Assembly: GCA_016873735.1 (NCBI GenBank)
Contig: VGWD01000002.1
Coordinates: 62,001-126,000 of the forward strand
Source: Ignavibacteria bacterium
Lineage (GTDB): Bacteria; Bacteroidota; Ignavibacteria; Kapaibacteriales; UBA961
Reading direction: 5' to 3'
Length of the DNA stretch: 64,000 nt
Part shown: positions 28,495 through 40,192 of the stretch, one piece after another
How the letters are laid out: each line of letters opens with the position of its first letter
How positions within the stretch are numbered: position 1 is the stretch's first letter
Notes under the pieces: generated by a model
The model's input: the letters and a program-made list of their open reading frames with translations, nothing else
Database searches by the model: none
Told to the model about the DNA's origin: nothing
Position numbers and translations under genes: made by a program

Positions 28495-31400
28495 TTATCG
28501 ACCGCCTGAGACTGAGATACGAATATCCAAGCCAAACTGATAGCGACTGAAACCGGGTGCAGCAGCGCCTTCATTGATGGTGGTTTCATATCTCATGAAC
28601 AATCGAGCCGTCACTCTTTGTGAAATTCCATATCTGGCAGATGGCTCCAAGATGATTTGTGTATTTCCATCCAAACGTTGAGCATTCTGATCTGCCAACT
28701 TAAGCAAGTCATATGTATTGCGTAGTGAGCGTTTGAATGTTGCGAGCATTGCGAATTCAAGTTCATTGTCGAATGTCAAACCAAAGAATGAGGTTTTGAA
28801 ACCTCTGCGATTATAATTCGCCTGTAAAGTCAAATCAGTTACGGACTCACTTTGAATGATTGATGAAGTTGGCTGCATGATATAATTTTCTCGGGTTGTA
28901 AATCTCAATGAACCTGTGAGCAATCCTTTCAGTTTTGACTCATCAAATGTCAGTTGCATTCCGAGCAGTGGTTCAAATCCGGATTGAATTTGTTGAGAAC
29001 CCGGGACTATGCCATTATCGGTTCTTGTTGTACTTTCTTGATAGGTGGATTTATATGCATGTTCCAAAGTGACGCGCTTTGCCAGATTTGCAAAAATCGG
29101 AAGCTTCTCAACACCATCCCATCTGAAAGTCCAATTGATTGCGGGCAAAACTTTTTGAACCGCATCAGGGAGGAATGAGAAAATTCTGGTTTCCAAACCT
29201 TTTTCGAATGATTCGGAGACAGCATCTCTCAATGCCTGATTTTGACGCAGGGTATCAGAAGGGATTTGTGCAATGATCACTTGTTTCCGTTCATTGAATA
29301 GATCGATCACACGTTCGATTGAATTATTGAGGGGAGCGAAGATCAAGAACTTGGGTAATGATAAATATGAACGATTATAATTGGAAGTCACGACTACATT
29401 CGTAAATCGTGAATTTCCTTCATTATCTGTGGAATCCAATTGATTTTTATTGAAGCCAAAGCCGGATTTCCAATTCAGATCCAATGTAGCGCCCGGCCAC
29501 AATGGACGATTTGTTCTAAACTCAACTTCAGATTTTTGGAAAAAGTTATCTGGTAATATTGCATTGCGGGGTCTTTTTCCATTGAAAGTTTCCACACGGA
29601 AAAATGGAAATCCTGCAGTAGGAATAAGCCTGAATCCCCCATGTGGTTGTGGGACCAATCCCATTTGATATGCAGCACTCGGCCCGAATGATTCTGCCTC
29701 ATCCAAACCCACGGCGCTTCTCCAAAAATTAGTCATTCCCGTTTCGCCCAAGATTCCTTGATTGATTGCAGAGTTTTCCTGTCTGAAATTCATCGTCAAT
29801 GTTTCATAATCAAAGAAGATTGTCTTGAATACTCTTCCGATGGTACCCAAAAAGCCGGAACTGGAGTCTGAACCTTTTGCAGCTGTTATACCCCACCATT
29901 TATCGGTCATGCTTTTGAGCCTTAGATTCGAAGTGAATCGTAAGGTATTTTGAAATGAAGCTTGCTTTACTGCATCTTTCACCAATGTATCCTGTTGCAA
30001 GGGATTGCGCCAAGTATAGGTGGTAGAGAAAGAACCTGTATTATCAAAATAATTATGCAGTCCACCAATATCAGGGAAGCGAGGTCTGAAATTCAATGTC
30101 ACCACTTGATTGTGATTCGTGTTTACACCGAAATTGATAAAAGTAGGACCATTTCTTATCACTCTTCTCAATAATTCACTGCCTTCTCTTTGTCTGCCAT
30201 TTTCATCCAATTCCAAATCCATCAATGTGGAACCGGTTGTAAATGAATAATCCAGTATTGGACTGAGAAGACCATTCTCAGAAAATCGCCATGAGAATTG
30301 TGCTTGACGTGTGGCGGCGAAATCTCTGATGACCGGACTTGGGAATGTCAGGAATCGTGATTTCTCCGTGGCTCTTGATCGTTGGAATTGAACGGAGGTT
30401 GAGAAGGAAGATGGAACAAAGAAGATCTTCCAATCTTTATATGCACCAAGAATGGGAATATCTCCAATCCAAGAAATCGGTTTCACGGAAATTGTTGATG
30501 GGAATTGCACATTATAATCTGACTTGAGTCTCCAATTCCATCTGAAGCGTTCCTCTGCAACAGGGGAGCGTTCAAATGTCTGGGAATAATCATAACTCAC
30601 ATTGATTTTATTTATCGTTTCTTTTATCAGCCAATGATTGATGGGTATTCCCAATCTGAATCCGGTGATCGCCCAGCTATCTTGAACTCTTAATGTTTGT
30701 GATCGTCTGCGAACAGAATCACTTACTCTGGCTGCTTCATTGACATTTCCCTTGGAGCGAGTCAACTCTGCATTATAAGCCGCTTGTGCAGCTTGTTCTA
30801 TTCCAACATCTGTTTGTGCAGCAAATATGGGTGTTTCCGCTACTTCACCATGGGAATATGATATTGGAATGCGCATTTCATTCAATTCTTTTGGTAGGAG
30901 TCTTTCGAGCGTCCCTTGCATTTGAACATTCCAATTCAATGTTTGATTACGATTCCCAAAACGTTCTTCGAGTCTGTGGAAATTTGGATTTGTCTGATTA
31001 TATGTGGCATTGACTGTACCCAAGTCCGCAAGTTTTAATTCCGCTGATCCTATACCTGCCCAATCGACAGAACTTTCAGGTTCAATTAATCGTAATTCAT
31101 TCACCCACATCGTGGTAGACAAATCTTCCGGGAATGAACCTGATGTTGGATTGGCAATGCCAAAGCCGATGAAATTAATTCTAGTGAGAATTGGATTTCC
31201 TTTGATCGCATATTGCGTTTCAATGGGAATGGAAAATCCGGGATCGAATTGTTCGGTAGTATCAGTAAATCGCGTTACGATGTCTTCCGGTATACGAAGC
31301 GTAGCTGCCTGTTGAGAGCGTTTCTCCTTAAGCGCTGTCAACTTGGCCACTTCAATGTCGATGTCTCTCCATCCTTGTATGATGGGGCGACGTACTTCAT

Positions 31401-34400
31401 AATAATTGGCAGAATCCAAACCAAATCGAATGAATGCCTGTGCTTTCGATGCTGCGCCATAAGGGATGAGCGCCGGCATGGAGCCATCTCCGTGAAGGAA
31501 GAACTTCAACCGCTTATAATAAAACACGTCTAAATTCCGCATCAAACGAACAGCCATTCTCTCCTGACCCGAAGGTAGATTTTTTACGCTCACGGACAAT
31601 GATTGTTCATTCAATCTCACATCCTGAAGAGGATCAGGATTATTGATTTGTCGTGGTCTTTGAACGCCGGGAGGCAATGTGTATAAATCGGGTAGTCGAC
31701 TGTTTTCCTCAACATTCACGAATTGAACACTGAGTATGCTGTCTTCAGGAGTGACATTCGGTTGCAATCCACTATTGCGAATCCATTGTCCGCCTGTGAA
31801 CTTCCATTCGGCAATCTTCACCGTTATTGGTTGACCTTTGAACCATACTCTGATATATTGAAGATTGGCAAAGGTAGGATTTCCTACTATTCTCGTCGGT
31901 CTGCGCAATGGAATGCGATAAAAGTACCATTGATTCAATGGATCGACATCTGCTGCACCTGTACCAATGATCTGTGGATTTCTTCTCGGATCAGGATCAA
32001 TATTGATTTTATAACTGAAATAACTGTTGTCCAGCATGATTGTCTGGCCATTATTGTTATTCAATATTTCGCGATCGGGAAATTGCCCCGATTCTGACAA
32101 TTGAGCATTATTTTCAAAGTTATTGTAAAATTTAAATTGATCGCTTGTCTGAACATTCCTGTTCGCATTGAAATCAAAGAAATAATTATCGCGAGCCGGG
32201 TCTTTTTCTTGATTAAGAGGGAAGGGATATCCTTCTCCAGGAGCGACAGAACTTTTTTCTTGTTCATCATTGAGCCCATCGATGCCGACGTCTTCGCCAA
32301 TATCGATGATATTATTTGGTATCGGACTTGTTTGTGTGATACCATCCTCGGTGTTCAATCGATTATTCGGGATGATGTCTTCACTGATCTGACCAATATC
32401 AACCCACATTTCTGTTTGATCGGGTTTTGTGTCCGAACCAAATTTTACGACCAATTCCAAAAAGTCGATGTTTTCTGTATCGAAATTTGTATTGAATGTA
32501 GAGAAAAGTCGTTGAATACCACCCCAAATGCGAAACTGATTATTTTGTAGAAACGCTGCATGTGAAGTTGGATCATATGAAGGATTGAGTGAATCTACAA
32601 AATCTTTGTTTCGATTGTATATCCCTCGCTCTGTACTTTCAAAACGGATTTCCAAATCATTGATGGTGTTCAATCTCCCGCGTGTATCACGATTGGGATA
32701 GACATCAAGTAATCTTGTGTCACCAATGAATTTTTGGAACCACCATGTTTTTCCGCGGAAGTAATTTCCTTCTTTTGAAAGTGGATCATCCCATAGTCTT
32801 GGATCATCGGGCAATGCGCAATGAGCCCATTGCTGCGGAGTAAGGCCAAGAGAAATGCTTCTTTGGGCACCTTCAAAATCATCTACATATGCAACGGCGG
32901 CACCATTATCGGAAGGGATGTCTGAAATACGTTTATTCGGTGTGGGAAGCATTGCAGCAATTTCGCCGCGAAGCGTGAGCGCTGATGGTGCTTTTGTATC
33001 ATAAAACGGCATTGCATCGAGTGCTTTTGTCAGGAAGGGTAAATTCAGATTAAGATTGCCATCAAAACCAATCATGCTATTTGAAACAGGTTCTTCATTA
33101 ACGCGAACGCGATCGAACAGCATTGCCTGATCAAACATCATGAATGTCATGCCAACATTCGCTGATCCATTTCTACGCTTGAATGCCTGCATATCTGCCC
33201 TCAATCCAACCAATGTTCTGGTAGCGAGATTGAACAAATCGTTTTGCTCATATTCAATGCTGAGATTTGCATTTGGCAATGAAGCTCGCGGATTGGTGAG
33301 GGTGACTTGGCCAGTGAAATACTCCACATAATAATCGACATTCTCTTTCAGTGGTGCTCCATCAAGATTCACGCGAACACTGCCGGGTGAGAGATTGAAA
33401 GCGCCGAGTGAGATTTTACCGCCACCGGTATTCATCAATCCGGTTGCTTCGCCGGTAATGATGAAGCGATCTCGGTCTGTAGCGCGACGTGCTATTTCAA
33501 CGATTTCGGTATAGACCTGTGTATAGCGATATCTATTGGCTGCTTGAGGGCTTCCAACTTTTGAGAAATATTTGACAAGTCCGGAGTCGAAAGGTTCTCT
33601 TTCCGGAAAAATGATTTCACCACGAACCGGATTGAAAAATGGTGACCCTTGCTGCTGATATTGTGCCGGTAATTGTGATTGAGGGGTGGTTCCTCCGCCC
33701 AGTGTAGTACTTCCACCTTGTTGCACTTGATTTTGTTGATTCTGCTGCTGTGGGCTACCCAAGTCGAATAGTCCATCGGGGCGTGCGGTTCCATCGGAAT
33801 TATTGACTCTGTCGACCCCGAGAATAGTCACAACCTTATCACTAGATCCTTCCAATACATCGGAGGAATCATTGTTTGCACGCAGATACCAAACATTCAG
33901 TTTCAAATCGGCAAGACTGACATTACTTTGTCCGATATTGAAGATATTCCGCATTTGCCTTTTCCAAAGCATGGGAAATCCGGGTTGCATGTTTGGCCTG
34001 TACACAAGTTTCAATATCAATGTATCTTTTGTCTGCACTGTATTGGAAATGGTACCAAAATCCAAATCATCACCGGGCTCACTTGTTTCTCCTTCTATGC
34101 GATATGCTACGGCATATGTTCTGTCTGATTTAAGAGAAGTGATTGTCAAACGACCGAGATTTTCATCGAATTGATATGCTCTTTGATCGAGTTTTAAAAA
34201 CTTTCCTCTTTCAGTATATCCTGCAACCGGTGCTATGTTTGTATAGAAGGCTTTATCGTAAAACTGTGGTGAAGCTCCAACTCTGTTTATTGCGGACAAT
34301 GTATCGATTGCAATGCCTTCAGCTGCCTGAGCGGCCAGCTGTACATCGACTGTTGATTCATAGACTTCCAATAACTTGATTCTGTTTTTTCTCGATTGGG

Positions 34401-35535
34401 GTGTATTTGGCAAAAGTGGAATTTGCGCTTTGTAATATGTGTCCCAAATTGAAAAGTATGCAGTATCCAAAAAGAAATTTTTCTTGTCATAATCATAGGC
34501 ATTCATTCTAAATGGTTGCCTCATTGTTCCACCACCTGAAACATTCACCCTCCGCGACTCACCCCTTCTTTGTGAAGCAATTGTCTTTAGGTAAAGCGGT
34601 CCGAATTGAAAGTCGGTCCTGATCCCGAATAATGCCTGGCTTCCGCTTATGAGCGTTGATGGAGTGGGGAATTGAACATTCCCAACTTCGACTCTTTTGA
34701 AAATATCATCTTCCTCACCTGAAAAGCCAATATTGAAGCGATTGTTCAAATCGAATTGCTGCCTTGTATTCCAATCAACACCCAATCGTAATTTATCACC
34801 AATCCTTCCCGTCACATTCAGATTGATGTCCTGCGTGAAAAAAGGCCCGGATTGTGTTTGCCCGAAAGGAGATGCTGTTCCCATTTTTTGCGAATCCCAT
34901 TGCCAACCGGCTCTCACATTCACATCGCCTGCAACATTGATGCTGATTTCTGGTTTACCAAAAATGTTCAAAAGGGGATTTGGTGGAATTGGGATGGATA
35001 ATCCGGTGGCCTGACTCAATACACTTGCCAAATCGGATGAAGACATCGCTTTTTTCAAATCATAATGCCGTACGAGCGAATCCCACAATCTTCCTCTTTC
35101 GCGTTCACGGCGCAAGAGTAAATAATCATCCATCGAAATGATATTTCCACTGGCCGTGGAGATATCTCCAAACATTTCAGTTTTTCTAACTTCTGTAATG
35201 GTTGAATCAAATTTCAAATCAATGGTATAACCGGGGGGCAAAGGATTGCTACGATATGGATCTTTTCCATAAGAACTGCGATACTGTCTTTTGGGTGAGA
35301 ATATACCGGAAAGTGGCAATGCCTGAGAATTGGAAAGTGTATCTGTGTCTGAGCTAAATGAAGTGGAATCGTCGGACTTTGCAAGTGGTTCTCCAATCAT
35401 CATTGAAGCACGCATATAAGCCAAAAGCAAATCACTATGCTCAAATTCGGCAGCGCATACTGCTATTCCCGTGCTTGCAATGAACAAGCACAAGAGAAGA
35501 GGGAAGAACCGAAATGAAACAATGTGGAGATGCAT
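28495..35535 (-). CDS. sprA: Type IX secretion outer-membrane translocon SprA
   Basis: 2346-aa secreted beta-rich protein; NVAGDVNVRAGWQWDSQ, DINLNVTGRIGDKLRLGVDWNTRQQFDLNNRFNIGFSGEEDDIFKRVEVGNVQFPTPSTLISGSQALFGI typical of SprA. Confidence 0.95.
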   Translation of the reverse strand: MHLHIVSFRFFPLLLCLFIASTGIAVCAAEFEHSDLLLAYMRASMMIGEPLAKSDDSTSFSSDTDTLSNSQALPLSGIFSPKRQYRSSYGKDPYRSNPLPPGYTIDLKFDSTITEVRKTEMFGDISTASGNIISMDDYLLLRRERERGRLWDSLVRHYDLKKAMSSSDLASVLSQATGLSIPIPPNPLLNIFGKPEISINVAGDVNVRAGWQWDSQKMGTASPFGQTQSGPFFTQDINLNVTGRIGDKLRLGVDWNTRQQFDLNNRFNIGFSGEEDDIFKRVEVGNVQFPTPSTLISGSQALFGIRTDFQFGPLYLKTIASQRRGESRRVNVSGGGTMRQPFRMNAYDYDKKNFFLDTAYFSIWDTYYKAQIPLLPNTPQSRKNRIKLLEVYESTVDVQLAAQAAEGIAIDTLSAINRVGASPQFYDKAFYTNIAPVAGYTERGKFLKLDQRAYQFDENLGRLTITSLKSDRTYAVAYRIEGETSEPGDDLDFGTISNTVQTKDTLILKLVYRPNMQPGFPMLWKRQMRNIFNIGQSNVSLADLKLNVWYLRANNDSSDVLEGSSDKVVTILGVDRVNNSDGTARPDGLFDLGSPQQQNQQNQVQQGGSTTLGGGTTPQSQLPAQYQQQGSPFFNPVRGEIIFPEREPFDSGLVKYFSKVGSPQAANRYRYTQVYTEIVEIARRATDRDRFIITGEATGLMNTGGGKISLGAFNLSPGSVRVNLDGAPLKENVDYYVEYFTGQVTLTNPRASLPNANLSIEYEQNDLFNLATRTLVGLRADMQAFKRRNGSANVGMTFMMFDQAMLFDRVRVNEEPVSNSMIGFDGNLNLNLPFLTKALDAMPFYDTKAPSALTLRGEIAAMLPTPNKRISDIPSDNGAAVAYVDDFEGAQRSISLGLTPQQWAHCALPDDPRLWDDPLSKEGNYFRGKTWWFQKFIGDTRLLDVYPNRDTRGRLNTINDLEIRFESTERGIYNRNKDFVDSLNPSYDPTSHAAFLQNNQFRIWGGIQRLFSTFNTNFDTENIDFLELVVKFGSDTKPDQTEMWVDIGQISEDIIPNNRLNTEDGITQTSPIPNNIIDIGEDVGIDGLNDEQEKSSVAPGEGYPFPLNQEKDPARDNYFFDFNANRNVQTSDQFKFYNNFENNAQLSESGQFPDREILNNNNGQTIMLDNSYFSYKINIDPDPRRNPQIIGTGAADVDPLNQWYFYRIPLRRPTRIVGNPTFANLQYIRVWFKGQPITVKIAEWKFTGGQWIRNSGLQPNVTPEDSILSVQFVNVEENSRLPDLYTLPPGVQRPRQINNPDPLQDVRLNEQSLSVSVKNLPSGQERMAVRLMRNLDVFYYKRLKFFLHGDGSMPALIPYGAASKAQAFIRFGLDSANYYEVRRPIIQGWRDIDIEVAKLTALKEKRSQQAATLRIPEDIVTRFTDTTEQFDPGFSIPIETQYAIKGNPILTRINFIGFGIANPTSGSFPEDLSTTMWVNELRLIEPESSVDWAGIGSAELKLADLGTVNATYNQTNPNFHRLEERFGNRNQTLNWNVQMQGTLERLLPKELNEMRIPISYSHGEVAETPIFAAQTDVGIEQAAQAAYNAELTRSKGNVNEAARVSDSVRRRSQTLRVQDSWAITGFRLGIPINHWLIKETINKINVSYDYSQTFERSPVAEERFRWNWRLKSDYNVQFPSTISVKPISWIGDIPILGAYKDWKIFFVPSSFSTSVQFQRSRATEKSRFLTFPSPVIRDFAATRQAQFSWRFSENGLLSPILDYSFTTGSTLMDLELDENGRQREGSELLRRVIRNGPTFINFGVNTNHNQVVTLNFRPRFPDIGGLHNYFDNTGSFSTTYTWRNPLQQDTLVKDAVKQASFQNTLRFTSNLRLKSMTDKWWGITAAKGSDSSSGFLGTIGRVFKTIFFDYETLTMNFRQENSAINQGILGETGMTNFWRSAVGLDEAESFGPSAAYQMGLVPQPHGGFRLIPTAGFPFFRVETFNGKRPRNAILPDNFFQKSEVEFRTNRPLWPGATLDLNWKSGFGFNKNQLDSTDNEGNSRFTNVVVTSNYNRSYLSLPKFLIFAPLNNSIERVIDLFNERKQVIIAQIPSDTLRQNQALRDAVSESFEKGLETRIFSFLPDAVQKVLPAINWTFRWDGVEKLPIFANLAKRVTLEHAYKSTYQESTTRTDNGIVPGSQQIQSGFEPLLGMQLTFDESKLKGLLTGSLRFTTRENYIMQPTSSIIQSESVTDLTLQANYNRRGFKTSFFGLTFDNELEFAMLATFKRSLRNTYDLLKLADQNAQRLDGNTQIILEPSARYGISQRVTARLFMRYETTINEGAAAPGFSRYQFGLDIRISVSGGR

Positions 35536-37487: not shown

Positions 37488-37937
37488 TTACCCTTGTTTT
37501 GTTTGAGAACTTCCCATTATTGCCAACACTTTCAATTCCACTGCAATTGGAGTTGGCAAGGCATTAATTTCAATTGTGGTTCTGCAGGCATTGATGCCTG
37601 CGAAATATTCTTTGTAGAGAGCGTTGAAACGCGGAAAATCTTCACGCATATTTGTTAAGAACACGGTCACATCGATGATATCCTCCCAACAAGAACCTGC
37701 ATCTTCAAGAATATATCTGATATTTCTGAATACAGAGAGCGTTTGTTCTTCGATATCATAATCAAGTATTTGCCCATTTGAATCCAAAGTAACACCCGGA
37801 ATGACTGATGTCCCGCGTTCCCTTGGCCCCACGCCCGACAAAAATAGCATGTCTCCAATGCGTCTTGCATGAGGATATGCACCCACAGGTTCGGGAGCTC
37901 TTTCGGAATTAAGGATCAGATTTGGGGATAATGCCAT
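37488..37937 (-). CDS. RidA family protein (2-aminomuconate deaminase-like subgroup)
   Basis: GDMLFLSGVGPRERGTSVIPGVTLD..SVFRNIRYILEDAGSCWEDIIDVTVFLTNM..FPRFNALYKEYF..CRTTIEINALPTPIAVELKVLA. Confidence 0.88.
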   Translation of the reverse strand: MALSPNLILNSERAPEPVGAYPHARRIGDMLFLSGVGPRERGTSVIPGVTLDSNGQILDYDIEEQTLSVFRNIRYILEDAGSCWEDIIDVTVFLTNMREDFPRFNALYKEYFAGINACRTTIEINALPTPIAVELKVLAIMGSSQTKQG

Positions 37938-38049
37938 AGAGTAGAACTTTGCCTTGATTAGTTGGCTACAAATTACGAATTTCGAGGAATTAGAACATAT
38001 TCAATATCGGGTCATTTCAGACCCTTTCATTTTTCGGAGCACACTCCAC

Positions 38050-39009
38050 ATGAAACGTATCGGACTACTTACAAGCGGCACAGATGCCCCGGGCATGAAT
38101 GCACTCATCAGATCAGTGGTGAGAACGGCTGAATCAAAAAAATTGGAAGTCATCGGCATTTCTCATGGATTCAAAGGAATTGTTGAAGAGCAATTCAAAA
38201 CATTGGGAAGAGCTGACACCGCAAATATCGTCGGCCTAGGCGGAACCATCTTGAAAACAAGCAAATATATGCCCATAGAAGAAGAGCATGTTCGTAAGCA
38301 AGCGGTTGAACAACTTCGCAAAGCCGGCATTGAGGGATTGATAGCCACGGGTGGTCCTTGGTCATTGAAATATCTGCATCTCATGGGTAAAGAACATAAT
38401 TATCCTGTGGTGGGTGTCGGTGCAATCATCGACAATGATGTCTATGGAACTGATTATACAATCGGATATGATTCCGCCTTGAATACTGCTGCTGAAGCTA
38501 TTGATAAAATTCGTGACACAGCTGATTCGATGGGAAATGTATTTATCATCGAAGTGATGGGAAGTCAAGCAGGGTATATCGCCATCAATGTGGGAATTGG
38601 ATGCGGAGCTGAATATATCGCCATTCCGGAAACCATCACGAATATACCTGATCTTCATCGCAGAATTTCATCGCGTAATGCTGATAAACGGTATATCATC
38701 GTAATCGGCGAAGGAGATGAAGTTGGTGGTGGATTTGATTTGGCGAAAATCCTAAAAGACTCCTATAATATCGACAGTACTGTTTCTGTTCTTGGAGCCA
38801 TGCAAAAAGGTGGTAAACCATCTGTTGCAGACCGAATCCTTGCAAGCCGTCTTGGCCATGCTGCGGTTGAAGCTATGATTGATGGAAATACAAATTCCAT
38901 GGTGGGCATCATCAATGGATCTGTGCATCATACTCCATTGCCTTTGACTTTTGAACGTAAAAAGATATTACCTGATTACTTGGTTTCATTGTCCGATATT
39001 CTTGCTTGA
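38050..39009 (+). CDS. Phosphofructokinase-family protein with degenerate active site (putative pseudo-PFK)
   Basis: Full PfkA fold homology (MKRIGLLTSGTDAPGMNALIRSVVR...IGYDSALNTAAEAIDKIRDTADS...DRILASRLGHAAVEAM), but the GGDGS motif is GGPWS and PGTIDND is GAIIDND. Confidence 0.9.
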   Translation: MKRIGLLTSGTDAPGMNALIRSVVRTAESKKLEVIGISHGFKGIVEEQFKTLGRADTANIVGLGGTILKTSKYMPIEEEHVRKQAVEQLRKAGIEGLIATGGPWSLKYLHLMGKEHNYPVVGVGAIIDNDVYGTDYTIGYDSALNTAAEAIDKIRDTADSMGNVFIIEVMGSQAGYIAINVGIGCGAEYIAIPETITNIPDLHRRISSRNADKRYIIVIGEGDEVGGGFDLAKILKDSYNIDSTVSVLGAMQKGGKPSVADRILASRLGHAAVEAMIDGNTNSMVGIINGSVHHTPLPLTFERKKILPDYLVSLSDILA

Positions 39010-39020
39010 TTGGAGCCATC

Positions 39021-39305
39021 ATGAACATTGATTTTACCGGCATAGTCCAAATGTTTCAAATAGAAGGCTTCACAGCACTCGGAAAAATCGCTCATCCGAT
39101 GACGGGCAAGACCGAGAAAAATCTTGAACAAGCCTCATTTGTGATTGATCTTCTTGCAATCCTGCAAGAAAAAACTGCTGGCAATCTGACCGATACAGAG
39201 TCACGATTACTTGATAATGTTCTGAGGGATCTGCGCTTGAATTATGTGGCAGATAATACTTCGCCAGCATCATCAAAGCCGGATTCCCCCGGTGATTTGT
39301 CATGA
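39021..39305 (+). CDS. DUF1844 domain-containing protein
   Basis: FTALGKIAHPMTGKTEKNLEQASFVIDLLAILQEKTAGNLTDTESRLLDNVLRDLRLNYV. Confidence 0.85.
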   Translation: MNIDFTGIVQMFQIEGFTALGKIAHPMTGKTEKNLEQASFVIDLLAILQEKTAGNLTDTESRLLDNVLRDLRLNYVADNTSPASSKPDSPGDLS

Positions 39306-40192
39306 AATCTATCGGACTGTATGTAAATTCGGATCGTGAAGGTGCGGTTCAAGCAGCCAAACATGCTGCTGCAATTCTCTTTGAACTTGGTGCTGAATGT
39401 TGCGCTGAAGCTAGCATTGCCGAATCATTCCCGGAAGACATACGCTCTCGCATACATATTTTGCATGCCACGGAATTCGAACGTTTTGCCGATCTCGTGA
39501 TTGTGTTTGGGGGTGATGGCACAATGCTAACCGCCGCTCGATTATTCTCCGGATCAGACCTACCGCTTATGGGTGTTAATGTTGGACGGCTTGGCTTTTT
39601 GGCGGAATTCAATTTGGAAGAATTACCCAAAGCGCTCAAAGATGTTCTGTCAGGTGATTATCGCATTGTAGATCGCACATTGCTCGAAGCACAAGTTGGA
39701 GGCAAAACCATACATGCTTTTAATGAGATTGTGTTCGAGAAAAAAGAATCATCCAGACTTATCACTACCCATATCGCTCATCAACATTATCTGATTGCAT
39801 CATATCGCGCTGATGGTGTGATCATAGCGACACCAACCGGTTCCACAGCTTATTCTTTGTCATGCGGTGGTCCAATAATAACTCCTTCATCATCTGTGCT
39901 TTGTATTACTCCGATTTCTCCTCATTCATTAACAATGAGGCCACTCATTATTCCTGATACGCTCGAACTATCAGTAAAAGTTGATGCTCCTGATGGTGAA
40001 GCCAGAATGGTTGCAGATGGTCAAATTGAATTATCAATTACAAAACAAGATCAAGTGCTCATTCGCAGATCGTCAACACAAGTGAAAATCGTGAAACATG
40101 CAGACAGTACATTCTTTGACCTCCTCCGCAATAAATTGTTGTGGTCTGTTGATCCATCAGCATTTGATCAATCATCAGAAGAGAAGCATTGA
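39302..40192 (+). CDS. nadK: NAD kinase
   Basis: VIVFGGDGTMLTAARLF; GVNVGRLGFLAEF; ADGVIIATPTGSTAYSLSCGGPIITP. Confidence 0.96.
   Translation: MKSIGLYVNSDREGAVQAAKHAAAILFELGAECCAEASIAESFPEDIRSRIHILHATEFERFADLVIVFGGDGTMLTAARLFSGSDLPLMGVNVGRLGFLAEFNLEELPKALKDVLSGDYRIVDRTLLEAQVGGKTIHAFNEIVFEKKESSRLITTHIAHQHYLIASYRADGVIIATPTGSTAYSLSCGGPIITPSSSVLCITPISPHSLTMRPLIIPDTLELSVKVDAPDGEARMVADGQIELSITKQDQVLIRRSSTQVKIVKHADSTFFDLLRNKLLWSVDPSAFDQSSEEKH

Follow-up and report, generated by a model that had tools for sequence, protein, structure and literature searches.

A stand-alone PfkA-fold protein with a substituted active site: a candidate bacterial pseudo-phosphofructokinase in the Ignavibacteria

Phosphofructokinase (PFK) is a textbook example of allostery. 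Eukaryotes turned a PFK domain without catalytic activity into a regulator, fused to an active domain, and the intermediates of this process are lost. Here we analyse a stretch of 64,000 nucleotides (the window) from an Ignavibacteria bacterium (genome G000), which encodes a PfkA-fold protein with most of its ATP, Mg2+ and fructose 6-phosphate (F6P) ligands replaced. The locus raises the question of what such a protein is for and how it arose.

The gene and its active-site substitutions

The gene, termed pPFK (pseudo-PFK), is an intact open reading frame with an ATG start. A longer frame with a TTG start at 37954 is unlikely, since the orthologs align from the same methionine. The locus is organised as follows:

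37488..37937, minus strand: RidA-family protein, divergent upstream neighbour of pPFK (Pfam Ribonuc_L-PSP; synteny across the family)
38050..39009, plus strand: pPFK, PfkA-fold protein of 319 amino acids (Pfam PFK, NCBIfam PFKA_ATP, fold match)
39021..39302, plus strand: small DUF1844 protein between pPFK and nadK (Pfam DUF1844, 87.5 bits)
39302..40192, plus strand: NAD kinase (nadK), whose place downstream of pfkA is conserved in the order (Pfam; synteny)

Adjoining this locus, a 2346-residue protein (window 28495-35535, minus strand), which is conserved upstream in L031, L072 and L073, looks like an SprA-type secretion protein of Bacteroidota.

The PFK domain (PF00365, 297 bits) spans the full length of pPFK, the closest solved structures are Bacillus enzymes, and the predicted fold resembles that of bacterial PFKs (about 42% identity). 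This bears out a preliminary description of the locus, made from the sequence, which had called the frame full length and the core fold conserved. The AlphaFold model was built from six sequences and has a mean pLDDT of 68, with values below 50 at 127-136, 222-226 and 250-256; owing to this low pLDDT, it supports the fold only and is uninformative on the pocket. Five genomes, each assembled separately (G000, G008, G009, G011 and G013), have the same GGPWS/GAIIDND protein at the same locus, which excludes chance and assembly or sequencing error as the origin of its motifs.

We numbered the substitutions by alignment to Bacillus (Geobacillus) stearothermophilus PFK. R72 and R171 are taken here to be ATP-phosphate contacts and D103 to bind Mg2+. 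The GGDG motif contains glycine 104, which is invariant in ATP-PFKs, and G108 leaves room for the adenine (PMC12203962); the 6-phosphate of F6P is bound by R162, R243, H249 and R252 (PMC7319554). The preliminary description had listed R72K, D103P, G104W, T125I, R162N, R171S, R243T, H249A and R252K, with D127 and D129 kept, and the alignment agrees on every one. It adds G11T, Y41F, C73Y, G108Y, P123G, G124A and H160M. The main sites are:

38080..38082, plus strand: T11 replacing G11 of TSGGD (ATP site); T or A in 10/10 family copies, G in 64/64 other orthologs
38263..38265, plus strand: K72 replacing R72 (ATP phosphates); alignment
38350..38364, plus strand: GGPWS replacing GGDG(S/T), D103P and G104W; invariant in five genomes
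38371..38373, plus strand: Y108 replacing G108 (room for adenine); alignment, role of the position from PMC12203962
38419..38439, plus strand: GAIIDND replacing PGTIDND, P123G, G124A and T125I with D127 and D129 kept; alignment
38536..38538, plus strand: N replacing R162 (F6P 6-phosphate, neighbouring subunit); alignment
38551..38574, plus strand: EVMGSQAG replacing EVMGRHAG, R171S; S in 10/10 family copies, R in 64/64 others
38779..38781, plus strand: T replacing R243; alignment, K or H usual in the order
38791..38814, plus strand: LGAMQKGG replacing LGHxQRGG, H249A and R252K; alignment

We counted 14 positions for ATP, Mg2+ and F6P (11, 72, 103, 104, 108, 124, 125, 127, 129, 162, 171, 243, 249 and 252), among which D127 and D129 are the sole survivors in pPFK. 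E222, M169 and G170 are likewise kept, and all five residues are kept in all ten copies of the family. The GGDG motif with its invariant glycine is absent from pPFK (GGPWS instead), and none of the four F6P 6-phosphate ligands is kept (N, T, A and K, respectively). R243T is a weak item, since canonical PfkA of the order mostly has K or H at this position. The GGDD and PKTIDxD motifs of PPi-PFKs are also absent (GGPWS and GAIIDND in pPFK), which rules out pPFK as a PPi-PFK.

Loss of the G104/G108 space together with D103, R72 and R171 would prevent productive binding of ATP-Mg, and loss of R162, R243, H249 and R252 would prevent binding of the F6P 6-phosphate. From PFK biochemistry, we infer that the protein of the window's genus (g1) cannot phosphorylate F6P. 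The preliminary description had reached the same view of ATP-dependent F6P phosphorylation; with the ATP, Mg2+ and F6P ligand substitutions confirmed, this activity appears very unlikely.

Descent of the gene and order of the losses

The named relatives compared with pPFK come from genomes assembled from metagenomes, under the labels Bacteroidota, Ignavibacteria and Candidatus Kapaibacterium. Three PFK genes are present in the genome of the window (2.26 Mb, 99.9% complete): pPFK and, as the check for further PFKs revealed, a 'mixed' PFK (L001; GGDGS/PKTIDND) and a GGNGS-type PFK (L003). The three fall in separate clades of a maximum-likelihood tree of 79 PFKs, and the ten proteins of the window family form one clade, with a support of 100/97, that is embedded in ordinary PfkA of their own order. 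Many of those ordinary PfkA genes share the arrangement of pfkA followed by nadK; the DUF1844 gene intervenes here. Because its clade lies within ordinary PfkA and the pfkA-nadK synteny is shared, pPFK is the positional, vertically inherited ortholog of the order's ordinary PfkA. The term 'paralog' in the preliminary description is thus wrong: pPFK is the order's pfkA at its ancestral place, and the other two PFKs belong to distant clades.

Like bacterial PfkA (TIGR02482, PF00365), pPFK has the PFK fold, length, gene neighbourhood and vertical descent, together with R21, R25, R154, E187, D127 and D129; unlike it, pPFK has its ATP, Mg2+ and F6P ligands replaced and scores below the equivalog cut-off. 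The score against NCBIfam PFKA_ATP (TIGR02482; cut-off 371.35) falls in step with the substitutions, from 374.6 for canonical PfkA to 363.7 in the sister genus (g2) and 313.8 and 313.7 bits in g1, the last being pPFK itself.

The comparison set comprised 64 orthologs of PfkA, all from families of the order and class other than the window's (L040-L065, L081-L100 and L131-L148). G11, R72, G104, T125, D127, D129, R171, H249 and R252 show no exception in the 64 and R162 a single one (Q in L049), while D, N or E stands at position 103 and R, K or H at position 243. All ten copies of the window family lack G11 (T/A), R72 (K/V/Q/H), H160 and R171 (S). D103, G104, T125, R162, R243, H249 and R252 are still present in g2 (G001 and G002). 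D103, R162, H249 and R252 are lost in g1, where G012 and G010 carry T/I103, A124, N162, A249 and K252; the five GGPWS genomes add P103, W104, Y108, G123, I125 and T/I243. In G007, the GGDG loop has degenerated separately (DATT at 102-105) and R162 is replaced by K162, but R243, H249 and R252 are intact. The preliminary description named random substitutions or frameshifts among the orthologs as evidence against its reading. We looked for both and found neither; on the tree, the substitutions form a nested, stepwise series.

Loss of D103 alone was rejected as proof of inactivity, as N103 occurs naturally in PfkA proteins of three families of the class that are canonical in other respects, and the case for inactivity therefore rests on the combination of losses. 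These PfkA proteins, with GGNGT in place of the Mg-binding D103, are found in families f11, f14 and f17 (L059, L062, L065, L081, L083, L087, L089-L092, L095, L098 and L100). Partial departures are also seen in L049 (genome G160, family f6; E103, V124, Q162; long branch) and in PfkA of family f7 (L058/L138/L139; E103, A108, A124 and L41; L058 long-branched). These could possibly be independent starts of the same process.

A PFK-superfamily paralog encoded in the genome alongside pPFK, the GGNGS-type (NGS-type) PFK likewise has an unusual active site; unlike pPFK, it keeps G11, R72, R162, R171, R243 and R252. Its gene (L003/L101; G000:C10:32686-33690, minus strand) is situated outside the window, and the protein has GGNGS, PGSIDND, SMGRDSAY and SYFQRGG motifs with W41, N103, S125 and Y249. 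NGS-type PFKs score below the NCBIfam cut-offs, occur in 56/119 genomes of the order, and several complete genomes (f3 g6, f29 and f4 g17) yielded no other PFK. Since it is the sole PFK of some genomes, the NGS-type enzyme is probably catalytic, and its clade probably represents an uncharacterised active PFK subfamily. The idea that pfkA degenerates wherever an NGS-type PFK is present was dropped: PfkA is intact in NGS-carrying G241, G245, G251, G257, G281, G206 and G209, and the presence of another PFK is therefore not sufficient for degeneration.

Maintenance of the gene and of its effector site

Selection was estimated with a purpose-written codon model and a likelihood-ratio test (LRT) against omega=1. 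We obtained an omega of 0.0106 on the five GGPWS sequences (LRT 982) and of 0.021 for G010/G012 (LRT 224); for G001/G002, the model ran to its bounds (saturation) and the result was left out. Counting methods agree (G000/G009: dN 0.003-0.007, dS 0.9-1.1). Between G000 and G008, pPFK is 93.1% identical at the protein level, compared with 82.0% for the mixed PFK, 90.1% for the GGNGS PFK and 83%, 89% and 81% for the neighbours NadK, ThrRS and RidA, all of which are lower. Among the five GGPWS genomes, P103, W104, I125, N162, S171 and K252 do not vary; positions 243 (T/I) and 249 (A/P) do. No stop or frameshift is present in any of the ten family copies. The strong purifying selection and high identity show that pPFK is maintained and not decaying, with dN/dS below 1, a check that the preliminary description had named.

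One relative (G005, 100% complete) has no pfkA:

L180 (G005:C26:7800-9500), positions 497-752: pfkA slot, 256-base gap between ridA and nadK, clean gene loss

The gene is therefore dispensable in at least one relative, and pPFK is not an absolute requirement for any partner in the family. G004 has nadK, and a pfkA ortholog was not found there; G003 and G006 are uninformative on presence, the locus being missing from their assemblies.

The ADP/PEP site of E. coli PFK comprises R21, R25 and R154 (phosphate contacts), S58, D59 and E187 (Mg2+) (PMC12889660). Its core is present in pPFK:

38110..38124, plus strand: retained effector-site R21 and R25; alignment, role from PMC12889660
38512..38514, plus strand: retained effector-site R154; alignment, role from PMC12889660
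38611..38613, plus strand: retained effector-site E187; alignment, role from PMC12889660

The three arginines are kept in 10/10 family copies and E187 in 9/10 (D in G007 only). pPFK thus keeps 2/14 active-site residues versus 4/4 core effector-site residues, a split with a chance of 91/18564 = 0.005 (hypergeometric, by hand), or 6188/293930 = 0.02 if E222, M169 and G170 are counted as active-site residues. It has A58 and N59 versus the canonical S58/G58 and D59; N59 is found order-wide. Two alignments place the region of the basic patch at 211-215 differently, and a lysine at 213 was dropped as effector-site evidence because of this disagreement. As judged from the alignments, 'effector site kept' covers the core of the site only.

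A putative regulator and the alternative readings

We put the probability at roughly one half that pPFK is a bacterial stand-alone pseudo-PFK, probably with a regulatory role through effector binding, whose active site was lost stepwise with its fold and effector core kept. Two hallmarks of a pseudoenzyme are found, the loss of the ligand residues of the active family and purifying selection; D127 and D129 remain. The ATP-phosphate site would have been lost first, followed by Mg2+ and F6P binding, and the remaining PFK scaffold could still change state with an effector. More weakly, the sequence suggests that the effector site of pPFK still binds a phosphometabolite (of the ADP/GDP or PEP class), with the signal relayed by protein contact. 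The target could be another PFK of G000, contacted via the effector-site interface, or pPFK could be a homo-oligomeric sensor; the partner step is a guess. Since pPFK cannot lend R162 or R243 to a partner, mixing across the active-site interface is unlikely and the effector-site interface likelier. A genome co-occurrence analysis found no exclusive partner gene for pPFK, and both other PFKs also occur without it. Further observations argue against a regulator: 10/10 copies retain the catalytic base D127 as well as D129, which a purely non-catalytic protein need not do, A58 and N59 are non-canonical in the effector site, and G005 has lost the gene.

Besides its two other PFKs, G000 keeps PGI, PK and FBPase. 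Despite these, a class II fructose-bisphosphate aldolase (PF01116) was not found in the whole genome; this step may be taken over by a DeoC/LacD-type aldolase candidate (L169, 204 bits).

Animal and yeast PFK offer a precedent: their C-terminal half gave up catalysis for regulation, its former active site being free to serve as an effector site (PMC12203962). In our alignment, the mammalian C-terminal half (GAPAAGMNAA, GTKR, GGFEAY, ETMGGYCG and LGHMQQGG) departs from canonical PFK at 11, 72, 103, 104, 171 and 252, all of which are also changed in pPFK. It has lost D127/D129 (PATVSNN) and kept H249, whereas pPFK has kept D127/D129 and lost H249 and R162; moreover, in animal and yeast PFK-1 the regulatory half is fused to the catalytic one, whereas pPFK is separate. 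Plant PFP-alpha is a separate regulatory subunit of the PPi-dependent PFK (PMC3653104) and, like the putative role of pPFK, represents a separate, homologous, regulatory PFK-family protein. However, it is eukaryotic, of the PPi-PFK type and forms a hetero-oligomer with PFP-beta, whereas pPFK derives from a short bacterial PfkA. No bacterial pseudo-PFK was found in the open-access literature searched. We propose, more tentatively than the regulatory role itself, that a bacterium evolved from its own inherited PfkA a stand-alone regulatory PFK-like protein whose active site is dead but whose effector site is live, and thereby repeated independently the route that eukaryotes took by tandem fusion.

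An enzyme with a different substrate, in which D127 and D129 act on another substrate or donor in a rebuilt pocket (W104, I125, N162, S171 and A249), is unlikely. The retention of D127 and D129 is the main argument for it, joined by that of E222, M169 and G170 in all ten copies and by the invariance of P103, W104, I125, N162, S171 and K252 in the GGPWS clade despite near-saturated synonymous sites; His249 and Arg162 also vary in Pfps that take other sugar phosphates as well (e.g., H249Y and H249L; PMC10339645). However, with G11, R72, D103, G104 and R171 lost, the triphosphate/Mg2+ site is gone and its space would be occupied by W104 and Y108. A new cluster of conserved charged residues was not identified, and positions 243 and 249 vary inside the GGPWS clade. 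Between these two, the regulator is favoured.

Less likely still is a moonlighting or structural protein, with the PFK fold in an unrelated binding role (e.g., as a scaffold with NadK) and no small-molecule sensing. The strong conservation of the whole protein without its catalytic residues and the conserved linkage to nadK are consistent with such a role. However, this linkage occurs with canonical PfkA and is older than the active-site loss, and is therefore no pointer to a new role, and the effector-site residues would need no retention.

That pPFK is still an active, if unusual, PFK is very improbable, even though D127 and D129 are kept, natural N103 PfkA is common in the class and the g2 copies, with D103 and an F6P site, could be weakly active: the ATP, Mg2+ and F6P sites of g1 are all changed, mostly at positions that are exception-free in the 64 orthologs.

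A decaying pseudogene, with PfkA replaced by the two other PFKs of the genome, would agree with the clean deletion in G005 and the long branch of the G007 copy, for which it is possible, but is barely credible for g1, where it is contradicted by the codon model, and is opposed by the ten uninterrupted copies and by a pPFK more conserved than its housekeeping neighbours.

If pPFK is the regulator that we favour, its novelty would not be the principle, as pseudoenzyme regulators are already known in the PFK superfamily; new would be a maintained bacterial stand-alone case with living intermediates. The automatic annotation of the gene as a 6-phosphofructokinase is probably wrong. Living relatives show successive stages in a separate gene, with the ATP-phosphate site changed first and the sugar site later, and these surviving stages make it directly testable in what order the changes came and where the function switched.
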